64,000 nucleotides of DNA from NCBI RefSeq assembly GCF_000785105.2, contig NZ_CP018906.1:1798001-1862000 (forward strand), written 5' to 3'. The first letter of the stretch is position 1. Every line of letters begins with the position of its first letter. Made by a program: the position numbers and the translations under genes. Shown one piece after another: positions 1,231 to 13,837 of this stretch. Source of the stretch: Lentilactobacillus curieae. Lineage in GTDB: Bacteria; Bacillota; Bacilli; Lactobacillales; Lactobacillaceae. Under the pieces are notes generated by a model that saw only the letters and a program-made list of their open reading frames with translations, did no database searches and was not told where the DNA came from.

Positions 1231-2574
1231 ATGGAAACAAATCAAATTATTGAAACGATTCAGATGATCTCAGAGGAGAGGCTTGATATTCGAACGATTA
1301 CCATGGGAATCTCCCTTTTTGATTGTATTGACAGTGACGGTGATACAGCACGGCGAAAAATATATGATAAATTAACATCAAGTGCGAAAGATTTGGTAAA
1401 GGTTGCTGACCAAATTGAAGCGGAATACGGGATTCCGATTGTTAATAAAAGAATATCTGTTACCCCAATCGCTTTGATTGCTGCCGCGAGTGGTGATCAA
1501 GATTATGTTAAGTATGCCAAAACTATGGATCAAGCTGCTGCTGCAGTTGGCGTGGATTTGATTGGGGGATTCTCCGCATTAGTTCAAAAGGGATATCAAG
1601 TGGGAGATTCTCGGCTAATCAAATCATTACCTGAAGCCTTAACTGAGACAACCCGGGTATGTAGTTCGGTAAATGTTGGCTCAACTCGGTCTGGAATCAA
1701 CATGGATGCGATTGGTCAAATGGGACACATAATTAAAGATATTGCCGCCATTGATGTTCAAAGCTGTATGAGTCTAGTCGTATTCGCCAATGCTGTTGAG
1801 GATAACCCATTTATGGCAGGTGCTTTCCATGGTGTAGGAGAAGCTGATAAGGTGATCAACGTTGGGATTAGTGGTCCAGGCGTGGTTAAACGTGCATTAG
1901 AGAAGGTTCCGAACGCATCTTTGGATAAAGTTTCAGAAACAATTAAAAAAACGGCATTTAAAGTAACTAGAATGGGTCAATTAGTCGGAAATGTTGCTGC
2001 TAAGGCATTGAATGTTCCGTTTGGAATTGTTGACCTGTCATTAGCGCCAACGCCTGCAGAGGGGGACTCTGTTGCTGAAATATTAGAAGAAATTGGGTTG
2101 CAAAGCGTAGGAGCACCTGGAACGACAGCTGCTTTAGCAATGTTAAATGATGCGGTTAAAAAAGGTGGAGTGATGGCCTGTGAACGTGTAGGCGGATTAT
2201 CTGGTGCATTTATCCCTGTTTCTGAGGATGCCGGGATGATTAGAGCTGTTCAGGCTAGCAATCTCAATATCGAAAAGCTTGAGGCAATGACGGCCGTTTG
2301 CTCAGTGGGATTAGATATGATTGCTATTCCGGGAGATACAAGTGCGGAAACCATAAGTGGAATGATTGCAGATGAAGCGGCAATTGGGGTTATTAATAAT
2401 AAAACAACTGCTGTGAGAGTTATTCCTGCTGTTGGCCAATCTGTTGGTGGCAACGTTGAATTTGGCGGTATATTTGGATCTGCTCCTGTAATGCCAGTTA
2501 ATCAGAATAGTCCTGAAAAGATGATCAAACGGGGTGGGCATATTCCGGCACCAATTCATTCATTTAAGAACTAA
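1231..2574 (+). CDS. PFL family protein (DUF711/UPF0210)
   Basis: A 447-aa DUF711 (UPF0210) protein of usual family length. Typical segments are [20 protein letters not shown], the glycine-rich [29 protein letters not shown], and the C-terminal stretch through [10 protein letters not shown]. The fold is related to glycyl-radical enzymes (PFL-like), but I see no clear radical motif and the biochemical role is unknown. The start at 1231 has GGAG six bases upstream; an ATG one codon earlier is also possible. It is the second gene of the ACT-DUF711 pair and ends at a strong terminator. Confidence 0.85.
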
Positions 2575-2590
2575 ATATAAAAGGGCGTTA

Positions 2591-2636
2591 AAAAAGCCAC
2601 GATAATTTCTTAATTGAAATTGTCGTGGCTTTTTTA
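2591..2636. terminator. Bidirectional Rho-independent terminator
   Basis: Stem AAAAAGCCACGATAATTT (2591-2608) pairs with AAATTGTCGTGGCTTTTT (2618-2635) with one G-U pair. A T-run follows on each strand. It serves the DUF711 gene on the plus strand and the 45-aa gene (2638-2775) on the minus strand. Confidence 0.88.
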
Positions 2637-2637
2637 A

Positions 2638-2775
2638 TTATTCAGATACGTTTTTTGACTTTGTCAGCTTGCTTGTTGTTTTTGAACAAGCTGATTTGTA
2701 ACTTGACTTATTTTGAGAGTAACCAGCGAGTGGACTCTTTACTACATTCTTTGGGGTATCATCATATAAATTCAT
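2638..2775 (-). CDS. Small basic protein of 45 aa, unrecognised
   Basis: A 45-codon minus-strand frame, MNLYDDTPKNVV... to ...SKNVSE, with a strong ribosome site GAAGGAG ending 10 bases before the ATG. A possible promoter lies upstream (2809-2837), and a bidirectional terminator begins immediately after the stop. The product is very rich in Lys and Ser and has one Cys, no hydrophobic helix and no signal peptide. I do not recognise a family. The complete set of expression signals argues for a real gene; the low-complexity composition means chance cannot be excluded. Confidence 0.5.
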   Translation of the reverse strand: MNLYDDTPKNVVKSPLAGYSQNKSSYKSACSKTTSKLTKSKNVSE

Positions 2776-2808
2776 ATTGATCGCTCCTTCACATTTTCGA
2801 TAATCTGA

Positions 2809-2837
2809 TTTTTACACATGGTACCGCTAGTTGGCAA
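2809..2837 (-). promoter_or_regulatory. Possible promoter of the 45-aa gene
   Basis: On the minus strand, TTGCCA (2837-2832), a 17-base spacer, then TAAAAA (2814-2809), about 30 bases before the start codon. The -10 box is weak. Confidence 0.35.
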
Positions 2838-2954
2838 AAAATATGCCTATGCATTTTTTAGGGATAAATTTAGTTAAATAGTCAATTTTGACTTATATTT
2901 AATTCAAGTTTGTGCTCATGGATAATTAATTTGTGAGTTTAGTTCATTTTAAGA

Positions 2955-2983
2955 TTGACGTAAGCATAAATATCCCATATAAT
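2955..2983 (+). promoter_or_regulatory. Promoter of tRNA-Arg
   Basis: TTGACG (2955-2960), a 17-base spacer and a perfect TATAAT (2978-2983), placing the transcription start about 9 bases before the mature tRNA. Confidence 0.8.
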
Positions 2984-2998
2984 AATTAACGTTGATTT

Positions 2999-3072
2999 GT
3001 CACAGTAGCTCAGCTGGATAGAGCAACGGTCTTCTAAACCGTAGGTCGAGAGTTCGAATCTCTCCTGTGACA
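2999..3072 (+). tRNA. tRNA-Arg (anticodon UCU)
   Basis: A cloverleaf can be drawn by eye. The acceptor stem is GTCACAG (2999-3005) with CTGTGAC (3065-3071) and discriminator A3072. The D stem is GCTC/GAGC, the anticodon loop CTTCTAA reads UCU, and the T arm is GAGAGTTCGAATCTCTC. CCA is not encoded. It reads AGA and AGG codons and has its own promoter and terminator, so it is a monocistronic unit. Confidence 0.95.
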
Positions 3073-3319
3073 TAAAACGTACGACGTGTTCTTTTAATTA
3101 AGATCATAAAAGTAAAAAAGCACTGATATCACTTGCATTGAGTGGTGTTGGTGCTTTTTTTGTATCCACAGATTTTGGATTGAATAATCAACGAAGCTAC
3201 TATACCGTATAAATTTGCAAGTTTTTGAGCTTTTCGGGGGCAATATTTGTAGAATAAGTTGCGATTTTATTAAGATAGTTTAGTTTTGCTTAAAAGGAGG
3301 CCGTTTTTAGAGTAAATAT
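3073..3319. other. Non-coding stretch between tRNA-Arg and the 38-aa gene
   Basis: Apart from the tRNA terminator I see no gene here. A ribosome-site-like AAAAGGAGG at about 3293-3301 has no start codon at usable distance. No repeat or structured RNA was recognised. Confidence 0.5.
3114..3161 (+). terminator. Terminator after tRNA-Arg
   Basis: AAAAAGCACTGATATCACT pairs with AGTGGTGTTGGTGCTTTTT, including several G-U pairs, and is followed by a T-run. It lies about 40 bases downstream of the tRNA. Confidence 0.85.
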
Positions 3320-3348
3320 TTGGTTTTAAGCCAAATTAACCAGATAAT
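3320..3348 (+). promoter_or_regulatory. Promoter of the 38-aa membrane protein gene
   Basis: TTGGTT (3320-3325), a 17-base spacer and GATAAT (3343-3348), about 45 bases upstream of the start codon. Confidence 0.6.
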
Positions 3349-3392
3349 AGAATTGTGCACAAAGGTTGCACATCTTTTAGGAGGTGGAAGTT

Positions 3393-3509
3393 GTGGGATT
3401 CGTTGTATTTATTGTACTTATATTTATTGTTTGTGGATTAATTCAATTATATATGGATACTTCAACATCCATGAAAGAAAGCGGCAAGCACCTTGCAAAA
3501 AAAGACTAA
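3393..3509 (+). CDS. Small single-span membrane protein, 38 aa, unrecognised
   Basis: Starts at GTG 3393, six bases after a near-perfect AGGAGGTG. The product is MGFVVFIVLIFIVCGLIQLY followed by a polar tail ending in HLAKKD. Residues 3-19 form one strongly hydrophobic helix and the C-terminus is Lys-rich, fitting a small single-pass protein with its tail in the cytoplasm. It has its own promoter (3320-3348) and a terminator 10 bases after the stop. It lies between tRNA-Arg and the rplU leader. I recognise no family; it resembles uncharacterised membrane mini-proteins or a type I toxin only in general build. Confidence 0.6.
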   Translation: MGFVVFIVLIFIVCGLIQLYMDTSTSMKESGKHLAKKD

Positions 3510-3518
3510 TTTCGGGGG

Positions 3519-3551
3519 AAAACCAATCGTACTCGGCGATTGGTTTTTTAT
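3519..3551 (+). terminator. Terminator after the 38-aa gene
   Basis: AAAACCAATCG pairs with CGATTGGTTTT around a 7-base loop, followed by a T-run. Confidence 0.8.
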
Positions 3552-3608
3552 TTTGGAGATTTATTGTATACTGTTCAGGCGGTGTGATTGAGCACCGTAA
3601 ATCTTTTG

Positions 3609-10988: not shown

Positions 10989-12698
10989 ATGCTATTAGAA
11001 TTATCGATAACTGACTTTGCAATAATTGAGCACTTAGATGTGGACTTTCAATCAGGGATGACGGTTTTAACCGGAGAAACTGGTGCTGGAAAGTCCATTA
11101 TTATTGATGCAGTTTCATTGTTGGCAGGCTCCCGAGGTTCAAAAGATTTTATCCGAACTGGGGCCAAAAAGGCGATTATTTCTGGTAATTTTGTACTTGA
11201 TGAAAGAAACCCTACATATGGTGTTTTGGATGAACTTGAAATTGAACATGATGATGGCAGTGTGGTAATTGAACGTGAGCTATTTGAAAACGGTCGCAAT
11301 AGTTGTCGGGTTAATGGCAGGATGGTCAATATTTCCACACTACGCAGAATTGGCGAGACCATCGTGGATATTCAAGGCCAAAACGATCATCAAGAGTTAA
11401 TGAATCCGGATCGGCATATTTTCTTGTTGGATGAATTTGGCGAAGACAAGTTAACTAACCTGCTTGAAAAGTATCATGCTGAGTACTCGACTTATTTGAA
11501 GCTTAAAGCGATAAATGATAAGAAAAACCAAAATGAAAAAGAGTGGGCGCAGCGACTAGACATGTTGAAATTTCAAATCAACGAAATCGATGCTGCCAAC
11601 TTGGTTGCCGGTGAAGAGGAAGATTTGGTTGCTCAACGAGATAGATTGAACAACTTTCAACGAATTCATGATGCGTTAGTGACAAGCTACGAGAGTCTTA
11701 ACAGTGATGAAAGTAGTGCCCTTGATGGGGTTGGAACCGCTATGAGTTCTATGCAGTCTGTAGAAGACCTTGATCCAGATTTTAAACAAATTTCTGAAGA
11801 TGTTTCTGGAGCATTTTATTCATTGCAAGATGCGGTTAGTTTGTTGTCAGACCAAATTAGTAATCTCGAGTTTAATCAGGATACTTTAGATGAGGTTGAG
11901 CAACGACTGAATCTCATCAGCCAGTTAGAAAAGAAGTACGGTGATACTGTCAATCAAATCCTTGAGTATCGTGAGAGCATCAGCGATGAACTTGATCAAA
12001 TGCAGGGGAATGCGGCTGAGGATGACGATTTAGCTGATCGACTAGAAAAATCTAAACAAATGCTAATAAAACTTGCAAAACAAATTTCTGATAAGCGCAA
12101 GGTAATTGCTAAAAGTCTTGAGCTTGGAGTTCAAAAACAGCTGGCAGATTTATTTATGGAAAAGGCGGTTTTTGAGGTCAACATTACAGATGCAACTTCA
12201 CTGACAAGAACAGGGATGGATAACGTGGAATTCTTTATCCAAACCAATCCGGGTGAAAAGATGTTGCCATTGGTTAAATCCGCTTCAGGCGGTGAGTTAT
12301 CGCGAATTATGCTAGCTTTGAAGACGATATTTGCCAAAGCAGCAGGAGTTACTTCAATTATCTTTGATGAAGTAGATACTGGGGTATCAGGCCGGGTTGC
12401 ACAAGCAATTGCCAATAAAATCTATACAATTTCAACCAAGTCTCAAGTTTTATGTATTACGCATTTACCACAGGTCGCCGCAATGAGTGACCAACACTAC
12501 TTTATTTCTAAGCAAACATCTGAAAATCGGACGATGACTCACTTACAAGAACTAAGTTCTAAAGATCGGATTGGAGAATTATCGAGGATGCTCGCGGGAA
12601 CCGAAGTTACTAAAATCACTACTGAGCATGCTGATGAGCTCCTTAAGCTGGCAAGTCACGAACGAGATGTAATTCGTAAAGAATTGAAGAAAAAATAA
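10989..12698 (+). CDS. recN: DNA repair protein RecN
   Basis: A 569-aa SMC-like ATPase acting early in double-strand break repair. Walker A is LTGETGAGKSIIIDA (about 29-43), followed by long coiled coils, then the signature SASGGELSRIMLALK and Walker B TSIIFDEVDTGVSG. Ribosome site GAAGGATGA. I see no LexA box before it, so it is probably transcribed with argR. It ends at a terminator beyond which lies an SOS-boxed gene on the other strand. Confidence 0.96.
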   Translation: MLLELSITDFAIIEHLDVDFQSGMTVLTGETGAGKSIIIDAVSLLAGSRGSKDFIRTGAKKAIISGNFVLDERNPTYGVLDELEIEHDDGSVVIERELFENGRNSCRVNGRMVNISTLRRIGETIVDIQGQNDHQELMNPDRHIFLLDEFGEDKLTNLLEKYHAEYSTYLKLKAINDKKNQNEKEWAQRLDMLKFQINEIDAANLVAGEEEDLVAQRDRLNNFQRIHDALVTSYESLNSDESSALDGVGTAMSSMQSVEDLDPDFKQISEDVSGAFYSLQDAVSLLSDQISNLEFNQDTLDEVEQRLNLISQLEKKYGDTVNQILEYRESISDELDQMQGNAAEDDDLADRLEKSKQMLIKLAKQISDKRKVIAKSLELGVQKQLADLFMEKAVFEVNITDATSLTRTGMDNVEFFIQTNPGEKMLPLVKSASGGELSRIMLALKTIFAKAAGVTSIIFDEVDTGVSGRVAQAIANKIYTISTKSQVLCITHLPQVAAMSDQHYFISKQTSENRTMTHLQELSSKDRIGELSRMLAGTEVTKITTEHADELLKLASHERDVIRKELKKK

Positions 12699-12742
12699 GA
12701 CGATATTCGGATTGCAATTGAGCAATTGAATATCGTCTTTAT
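12697..12742. terminator. Terminator between recN and the convergent YolD-like gene
   Basis: AAGACGATATTC (12697-12708) pairs with GAATATCGTCTT (about 12728-12739), with a shorter inner stem CAATTG. The flanks are A/T rich on both sides, so it may act in both directions. Confidence 0.75.
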
Positions 12743-12760: not shown

Positions 12761-13069
12761 TTAGTTGAATCTTTGGATTGATTGTAGTTCGCCTAGGTAA
12801 AAGATTTTGGTTAAATTACCTGTCATATCCTTGATTAGGAGTCTGTCGTCGGAAAGTTTGGTTAATGAACCGGAAATACTGATGGTTTCGCTATTGAAAG
12901 CGACAGTTACGCGAAAGTTTTGGCAAATAGCTTGATCAGCGAAGTATTGGAGCTGACGCATGGGCATCTGGCCTAGATTTCTGTGATTAGGAAGAATTTT
13001 CAAAAATCTTTGATAGTTTTGTTTAACTGTGTTGGTGATTTCGGTTAGATAGGATTGTCTGTTTTGCAT
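12761..13069 (-). CDS. YolD-like small protein, SOS-boxed
   Basis: A 102-aa cytoplasmic protein beginning MQNRQSYLTEITNTVKQNYQ. The second half (SISGSLTKLSDDRLLIKDM followed by TGNLTKIFYLGELQSIQRF) has the beta-rich pattern of YolD-like proteins, in which a modified strand pair ends with an 'I...I' face. In Bacillus, YolD-like genes accompany Y-family polymerases (uvrX-yolD, yqjW-yqjX) and respond to DNA damage. Here there is no polymerase gene beside it. The ATG at 13069 is 8 bases after GGAG. The promoter holds a perfect LexA half-site pair. The family assignment is inferred from pattern only; the SOS control is well supported. Confidence 0.6.
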   Translation of the reverse strand: MQNRQSYLTEITNTVKQNYQRFLKILPNHRNLGQMPMRQLQYFADQAICQNFRVTVAFNSETISISGSLTKLSDDRLLIKDMTGNLTKIFYLGELQSIQRFN

Positions 13070-13080
13070 TTTAATCACTC

Positions 13081-13094
13081 CGAACGTTTGTTTG
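13081..13094. promoter_or_regulatory. Second, weaker LexA (SOS) box
   Basis: CGAACGTTTGTTTG: left half CGAAC, 4-base spacer, right half GTTTG, one position from the ideal dyad. It lies between the transcription start and the ribosome site of the YolD-like gene, 13 bases from the first box. Confidence 0.5.
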
Positions 13095-13101
13095 TGTCTT
13101 A

Positions 13102-13130
13102 ATTATACGAACAAGCGTTCTAAATTGCAA
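13102..13130 (-). promoter_or_regulatory. Promoter of the YolD-like gene with embedded LexA box
   Basis: On the minus strand TTGCAA (13130-13125), 17-base spacer, perfect TATAAT (13107-13102). The spacer contains CGAACAAGCGTTC (13108-13120), matching the Gram-positive LexA/DinR operator CGAAC-N4-GTTC exactly. A repressor bound there would cover the space between -35 and -10. Confidence 0.8.
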
Positions 13131-13222: not shown

Positions 13223-13837
13223 ATGACTAAAAGAGGAATGTTAATCGTGCTGTCTGGACCATCTGGTGTTGGTAAGGGGACTGTTCGTAAAGCATTATTT
13301 AATGAACCTGACGTTGATTTTGAGTATTCAACTTCAATGACAACCAGAAAACCACGCGATGGTGAAAAAGACGGTGTGGATTATTTCTTTGTTTCAAAGG
13401 AACAATTTGAAGATAATATCCAAAATGGGGAGATGCTAGAGTACGCCAAGTACGTTGACAATTACTACGGCACCCCATTAAAATATGTTAACGAAACTTT
13501 GGAATCCGGCAAGGATGTCTTCTTAGAAATTGAAGTCAATGGTGCAATGCAGGTTCGAGCTAATTGTCCCGACGCTGTCTTTGTATTTTTAACCCCACCA
13601 GATTTAATGGAATTGAAGCACCGTTTGATTGGTCGTGGAACTGACAAAATGGAAGTTATCGACAAACGAATCAAAACAGCAGCTTCTGAAATAAGAATGA
13701 TGCGTAACTATGATTACGCTGTGTTAAACGACGAAGTTTCTCAAGCAGTCGATAGAATTAAATCAATTATTCGCAGTGAGAGACTTAAAGTTACTCGTGT
13801 GATGCCAGACTATGAATCCATGTTAGGAGATTTTTAA
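13223..13837 (+). CDS. gmk: Guanylate kinase
   Basis: Phosphorylates GMP to GDP with ATP. The 204-aa protein has the P-loop [16 protein letters not shown] (9-24), the GMP-binding [20 protein letters not shown] and the lid [13 protein letters not shown]. Gmk and rpoZ are commonly paired, and here only one base separates them. Start at ATG 13223 with AAGGGATC upstream. Confidence 0.97.

Follow-up and report, generated by a model that had tools for sequence, protein, structure and literature searches.

In Lentilactobacillus curieae, a gene for a protein of 102 amino acid residues lies between recN and gmk, and two LexA-type boxes precede it. Its position and promoter raise the questions of whether it belongs to the SOS response and, if so, with which partner its product would work. 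An earlier note, based on the 64,000-nucleotide stretch of DNA that was analyzed here (referred to as the window), described it as a stand-alone YolD-like gene under LexA control, whose product would either act with a polymerase encoded elsewhere or be an unknown SOS protein. The features of the locus are listed in Table 1.

Table 1. Features around the 102-residue gene, numbered from the first letter of the window
Feature	Position	Strand	Remarks
recN, convergent neighbor	10989..12698	+	within the flank of about 1.5 kb in 87 of 143 loci
Inverted repeat separating the convergent recN and 102-residue gene	12697..12739	.	folds at -21.7 kcal/mol
102-residue gene, putative YolD-superfamily barrel protein without RG..KW arm	12761..13069	-	ATG at 13069, stop at 12763-12761
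Shine-Dalgarno-like GGAG	13078..13081	-	shares one base with the proximal box; read from the sequence
Proximal LexA-type box CGAACGTTTGTTTG (minus strand CAAACAAACGTTCG)	13081..13094	.	downstream of the -10 hexamer, abuts the ribosome site
-10 hexamer TATAAT	13102..13107	-	84-100% conservation per position in 138 loci
Distal LexA-type box, inside the 17-bp spacer between -35 and -10	13108-13120, perfect dyad CGAACAAGCGTTC; 13108..13121, CGAACAAGCGTTCT	.	
-35 hexamer TTGCAA	13125..13130	-	first three letters 99-100% conserved across the 138 loci when these are aligned by their distal boxes
gmk, divergent neighbor	13223..13837	+	within the flank of about 1.5 kb in 135 of 143 loci

The host genome is a single contig of 2.096 Mb. 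The coordinates bore out that the 102-residue gene faces recN, and the inverted repeat between them is probably a terminator common to both genes; this repeat was absent from the output of a terminator scan. Beyond the promoter of the 102-residue gene, the gene set gmk-rpoZ-coaBC runs in the opposite direction. Rfam gave no match at gathering score between positions 12600 and 13300.

The promoter of the 102-residue gene has the form TTGCAA-17-TATAAT, and the perfect dyad in its spacer was confirmed in both coordinates and letters. The second, imperfect box that the earlier note had placed before the ribosome site was also found, between the -10 hexamer and GGAG, and the two dyads are 27 bp apart. 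A lone LexA-type box is near the chance level. With at most one mismatch to the LexA-type motif, 11 matches were found in the window versus 10.9 expected. In the whole genome, the consensus with one mismatch gave 50 matches versus 80 for the backward pattern, and GAACN4GTTC gave 22 sites versus 47 in the control. The strict consensus CGAACRNRYGTTYB, however, had only three perfect sites in the 2.1-Mb genome, which are located at 235118 before a umuC-type gene, at 1992011 before lexA and in the promoter of the 102-residue gene. In the genome-wide box search that the earlier note had proposed, the strict form was rare and the loose forms did not rise above the control. In contrast to lone boxes, paired boxes in place are above chance.

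To follow the gene and its boxes through the family, 251 Lactobacillaceae genomes were sampled. A family profile matched 146 of these genomes, while the single protein used as query matched 56. Among the 147 places read, 143 were orthologs of the 102-residue gene, from 143 genomes and 21 of 40 genera. The remaining four, in three genomes, were YolD-like proteins of the umuC-operon kind, three of which have umuC just upstream (family profile, E ≤ 1e-3), and they were left out of the 143. At least one of gmk and recN accompanied the gene in 139 of the 143 loci, so that its chromosomal place is fixed. Neither neighbor was present in the stretch read for L201, L202, L206, and L216 (three of which are from genus g19), which were assigned by profile and box only. 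An in-frame TAA was found in the gene copies of L109 and L132, so that two of the 143 copies look broken, which may reflect decay of the gene in individual species. These two loci and L178 were omitted from the family alignment, which consequently had 140 rows, because of an in-frame stop or a doubtful start and length.

Boxes were counted in the 140 bp upstream of the start codon by a rule that required an intact AAC/GTT core and allowed at most two mismatches to CGAACN4GTTCG. By this rule, at least two boxes were present in 138 of the 143 orthologous loci and a single box in five; related genomes are dependent samples, a concern that the 21-genus spread limits and does not remove. The controls contained no pairs: none of the 143 in-gene stretches and none of the 2860 dinucleotide shuffles had two boxes, and one box was found in 2 and 25 of them, respectively. 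The distance from box to box was 27 bp in 96 loci and 28 bp in 26 of the 143 loci. Moreover, the TTG of the -35 hexamer and the -10 hexamer were conserved at a constant position relative to the distal box. Similarly, an alignment-based scan of named genomes identified 12 Lentilactobacillus loci, all 12 with both boxes; the same scan with the single protein as query gave no match. At the level of the order, a profile search matched 75 of 198 genomes, of which 17 were Lactobacillaceae. The matches outside the Lactobacillaceae were weaker and may belong either to the 102-residue family or to umuC-operon YolD. One homolog outside the Lactobacillaceae (L222:1391-1717) lies, as judged by eye, between DegV-like and cardiolipin-synthase-like genes and has one partial LexA-type box upstream.

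Since chance alone would produce single near-match boxes and the divergent gmk shares the intergenic region, the boxes might serve gmk or be fortuitous, with the ORF being incidental. However, the ORF is conserved, and the pair, kept in 138 of the 143 loci, remains at a near-fixed distance from the start codon of the 102-residue gene even where gmk is 400–1000 bp away. Thus, the boxes belong to the 102-residue gene and not to gmk. This explanation is extremely improbable, and the conservation refutes it on sequence grounds. The earlier note had named a dyad not conserved upstream of orthologs as a reason to give up LexA control; with the pair kept in these loci, control of the 102-residue gene by LexA is strongly supported by sequence.

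Other parts of an SOS regulon are also recognizable in the host genome. The lexA gene is located at 1992085, downstream of its own box. Looser boxes precede recA, dinB, uvrB, and uvrC (genes identified by Pfam), and because of the genome-wide background these four rest on their placement. When seven SOS-type promoters were compared under one rule, two boxes were found only at the 102-residue gene. The promoters of lexA, recA, umuC, and dinB had one box each, and those of uvrB and uvrC had none, as their boxes break the core. In a published study of Lactobacillaceae, the LexA regulon was reported to be universal among the members covered, and 13 target operons were predicted (PMC3616900). The lexA gene directly adjoins a DUF896 gene (L067:689-1017), and no yneA-like ORF was found between them.

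A likely counterpart of the 102-residue gene has appeared in expression data. In Lactiplantibacillus plantarum WCFS1, lp_1611, a gene of unknown function with a LexA/DinR motif, was up-regulated 32.9-fold with H2O2 and is next to, and in the opposite direction from, opu genes (PMC2174512), and lp_1610 is opuCD (PMC8953754). Among the loci without recN, L117 and L122 (genus g38), L021, and L124 have genes for a transport permease and a substrate-binding protein beside the 102-residue gene, and the neighbors in L122 are BPD_transp_1 and OpuAC by Pfam. Because lp_1611 adjoins opuCD (lp_1610) and the genes of L117 and L122 adjoin transport genes, we infer from position only that it is an ortholog. 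The available passages on lp_1611 present it as an uncharacterized ORF and a guessed regulator, and they contain no YolD link, double operator or family-wide conservation (PMC2174512; PMC8953754). Similarly, none of the literature matches listed tied the 102-residue gene to YolD, in a search that covered subscription journals thinly.

Scans of the 102-residue protein against Pfam, NCBIfam, and PHROGs assigned no family, and Pfam and NCBIfam scans of 22 family members gave nothing credible. PF08863 (YolD-like) was not among the families matched by these 22 members at E ≤ 1, had no match in the whole host genome and, in the profile search that the earlier note had suggested, did not match the 102-residue protein. 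The YolD-like protein of the umuC operon in the same genome was likewise missed by PF08863. Profile–profile comparison with hhalign was more sensitive. The family alignment (140 rows) matched the YolD-like proteins of umuC operons (5 rows) with a probability of 96.3, a score of 51.7 and an E-value of 1.9e-9, versus 18.3 for the best of 60 column permutations and 9.4 for the reversed control. Against the PF08863 set of Bacilli (24 rows, from 24 of 30 YolD loci fetched, the other six having been dropped for a wrong reading frame), the family alignment had a probability of 78.5–83.3, a score of 33.3 and an E-value of about 1e-5, versus 12.0 for the best of 60 permutations and 13.5 for the reversed control. 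The probability between the operonic set and the PF08863 set was 96.4. By these profiles, the 102-residue protein is closest to the YolD-like proteins encoded in lactobacillar umuC operons, and its homology to PF08863 YolD is weak and confined to the barrel part (78–83% probability).

The N-terminal arm with the RG..KW motif is thought to grip UmuC-type polymerases. This arm was found in none of the 143 family members versus all 53 operonic copies found; the operonic search model was built from arm-bearing copies, so armless operonic copies could have been missed. The strict motif was present in only 12 of the 24 PF08863 proteins, and thus its absence alone does not make a protein un-YolD-like. 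A looser W/F box was found in 21 of the 24 PF08863 proteins and, in the first 45 residues, in 23 of the 143 family members. The term YolD-like used in the earlier note is therefore retained at the superfamily level, where profile–profile comparison and predicted fold agree with it, but not at the level of PF08863, given the missing profile match and the missing arm.

A structure model built with 13 sequences had a mean pLDDT of 79.9, with helices at residues 4–25 and 37–50 and a five-stranded barrel. The pLDDT was about 92 in the barrel region (residues 41–100), while the N-terminal 30 residues were of low confidence. The 102-residue protein is thus predicted to consist of alpha-helix and an Sm/SH3-like beta-barrel. 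The best matches of the model among solved structures were Hfq (Foldseek E 1.9e-4; Z 9.2) and WYL domains, including those of PafBC (Z 8.8) and DriD (Z 8.5). The WYL domains of BrxR and CapW were also close. In a viral structure library, the matches were mostly uncharacterized or Sm/Hfq-like small proteins. The YolD class has been described as Sm-related and WYL-like (PMC6511836). Similar to Hfq and other Sm proteins in its predicted single-chain fold, the 102-residue protein differs from them in having no sequence match and no Pfam family; its likeness to the WYL domains of PafBC and DriD is also one of predicted fold, with no sequence match.

These folds suggest that the barrel might bind ssDNA or RNA in the manner of WYL domains (DriD) or Hfq, and that the protein would signal or regulate as a nucleic-acid-binding SOS effector. 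Several of the DriD entries and the CapW entry are indeed complexes with ssDNA. However, a shared small barrel shows no function, and de novo designed barrels matched the model as well as Hfq did (Z 9.2 and 8.9). Nor was there a credible sequence match to a solved chain: the best hit of a profile search of PDB chains was unrelated (E 0.22), and no Hfq chain was found at E ≤ 1. Basic residues were also poorly conserved on the barrel, where no single basic residue type exceeded 55% at any column and Arg or Lys together reached 69% at residue 96 and at most 47% at the other columns. A role of this kind is thus quite unlikely. The helix at residues 37–50 carries Q-[LI]-x-[LY]-F, and 73 of 140 sequences fit a loose pattern of it. 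We take this pattern to resemble the sliding-clamp pentapeptide consensus. A clamp-binding motif is not claimed here, as the predicted helix and hydrophobic packing would explain the spacing.

The host genome encodes two Y-family polymerases, one of UmuC type and one of DinB type. The umuC-like gene that the earlier note had expected elsewhere in the genome was therefore found, and its observation that no polymerase gene is adjacent holds more widely, with no umuC in the flanks of the 143 loci. The 102-residue protein could accordingly be a relocated YolD that still serves a UmuC-type polymerase as a UmuD-like subunit. Such an arrangement has a precedent in Staphylococcus aureus, whose yolD and umuC are apart and both LexA-controlled (PMC6511836; PMC11442139), and umuC of the host genome has a LexA box. 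Against this explanation, the umuC operon of the host genome contains its own YolD-like gene: umuC is followed by an ORF of about 105–120 codons and then by a gene for a YolD-like protein of 125 residues (L066:3285-3662). A polymerase encoded elsewhere is thus weakened as the partner of the 102-residue protein. The intervening ORF (L066:2916-3278) has no Pfam match, and similar ORFs were seen by eye after umuC in L259, L260, L278, and L284, where a YolD-like gene was not found.

The distribution of the gene also does not follow that of UmuC. At a threshold of E ≤ 1e-40, UmuC was present in 206 of the 251 genomes; 118 genomes had both the gene and UmuC, 25 the gene only, 88 UmuC only and 20 neither. 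UmuC was thus found in 118 of 143 gene-bearing versus 88 of 108 gene-less genomes (OR 1.07, p 0.87), so that the 102-residue gene occurs independently of UmuC. A Y-family polymerase was found in all 25 genomes of the gene-only group; with types judged by size and score, it was DinB-size only in 16, of about 510 residues only in six (genus g6) and of both kinds in three. Since the gene is present without UmuC in 25 genomes and without DinB-size polymerase in six of these, it has no obligate partner in UmuC or in DinB. In L242-L250, the gene for the Y-family polymerase of about 510 residues is followed by one for a protein of about 150 residues, which has a DRAxQFxPF motif and no Pfam match and is presumably of a kind annotated as YolD-like. 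In L246, a gene for a group II intron reverse transcriptase/maturase (RVT_1, GIIM; positions 2244-3560) is directly beside the gene for the polymerase of about 510 residues.

Sixty UmuC loci, hand-picked from the 206 UmuC-positive genomes (40 gene-bearing and 20 gene-less), were inspected for YolD-like genes. Within about 2.5 kb of umuC, such a gene was found in 52 of the 60 loci, that is, in 32 of 40 from gene-bearing and 20 of 20 from gene-less genomes. UmuC loci without a nearby YolD-like gene were therefore seen only in gene-bearing genomes (8 of 40 versus 0 of 20, p 0.04, or p 0.08 once a UmuC locus cut by a contig end was dropped). This excess is the one comparative result that favors a relocated partner. 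However, the eight loci represent few events, since a single genus contributes three of them and a second genus two, and the host genome and 32 of the 40 loci already carry a YolD-like gene. Considering also the lack of co-occurrence with UmuC and the absence of the arm in 143 of 143 members, continued service to UmuC is rather unlikely. Of the two options in the earlier note, action with a polymerase encoded elsewhere agrees with the presence of UmuC but not with the YolD-like gene in its operon or the missing co-occurrence, and an unknown SOS protein fits better.

The comparison with known systems points in the same direction. Similar to the PF08863 YolD family, which includes YqjX, YolD, and YozL of Bacillus subtilis, the 102-residue protein has a predicted barrel after a helix, and LexA control has been reported for YqjX and for S. 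aureus YolD (PMC6511836). Different from this family, it is below the detection of PF08863 and armless, and its gene shows neither linkage to nor co-occurrence with a UmuC-type polymerase. It shares with the operonic YolD-like protein the profile similarity described above and, presumably, SOS control, which the operonic protein would receive through the box before umuC; the operonic protein differs in being encoded behind umuC and in bearing the RG..KW arm. The yolD gene of S. aureus (SAOUHSC_02144) is likewise stand-alone, LexA-controlled and away from umuC (PMC11442139; PMC6511836). It differs in that it has been proposed for a umuC elsewhere, whereas lactobacillar UmuC is mostly accompanied by its own YolD-like gene, as in 52 of the 60 loci. 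In the available account of B. subtilis, inactivation of YqjX did not significantly change mutagenesis and contact between PolY2 and YqjX was not detected (PMC13335488). YolD-type function itself is thus putative, as is a role of YolD as the counterpart of UmuD.

Without an RG..KW arm and without a need for UmuC, the 102-residue protein would more likely contact DinB, RecA or the clamp. Our tentatively preferred reading is that the gene encodes an adaptor of YolD type that lacks the arm and would serve as a core SOS effector, acting on one of these three and not on UmuC; the adaptor role and the partner are both inferred. With one LexA operator in the promoter spacer and a second just past the transcription start, the gene would be held tightly off, with LexA dimers on both boxes blocking the promoter and early transcription. 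RecA-driven cleavage of LexA frees SOS operators. After DNA damage, such cleavage would free both boxes and lead to strong induction. The barrel protein would then accumulate and may function as an adaptor at stalled or damaged forks, by analogy with UmuD'/YolD, and it would act on a target that is available whether or not the cell has UmuC, namely DinB, the RecA filament or the sliding clamp.

Genes for harmful SOS products are known to have more than one operator, and a very tight double operator would also be explained if the 102-residue protein were a checkpoint inhibitor that is induced by damage and blocks division or replication, as SulA or YneA does. The place next to lexA in the host genome is taken by the DUF896 gene, with no room for yneA between them. 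None of the 251 genomes had a match to the YneA model (NF010723) at its cut-off; weaker matches were found in 234, many of them in long frames, which are probably LysM proteins. However, the relationship to YolD argues against an inhibitor, as does the absence of LysM or any other Pfam domain, and this role is decidedly unlikely.

The preferred reading of an armless adaptor can be compared with a UmuC-independent SOS effector in which an armless, stand-alone barrel of YolD/WYL type, retained by lactobacilli behind a double LexA operator, would act directly on RecA, the clamp, DinB or ssDNA. We regard the latter as possible, although on the doubtful side. If true, such an effector would represent an SOS accessory class without an assigned family and would give the YolD barrel a role apart from UmuC. 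The 102-residue gene is apparently a core SOS gene of many lactobacilli, present in 143 of the 251 sampled genomes, that no Pfam or NCBIfam model names. As a YolD relative is present in genomes in which the only Y-family polymerase found is of DinB size, the role of the barrel would be testable in a UmuC-free background.
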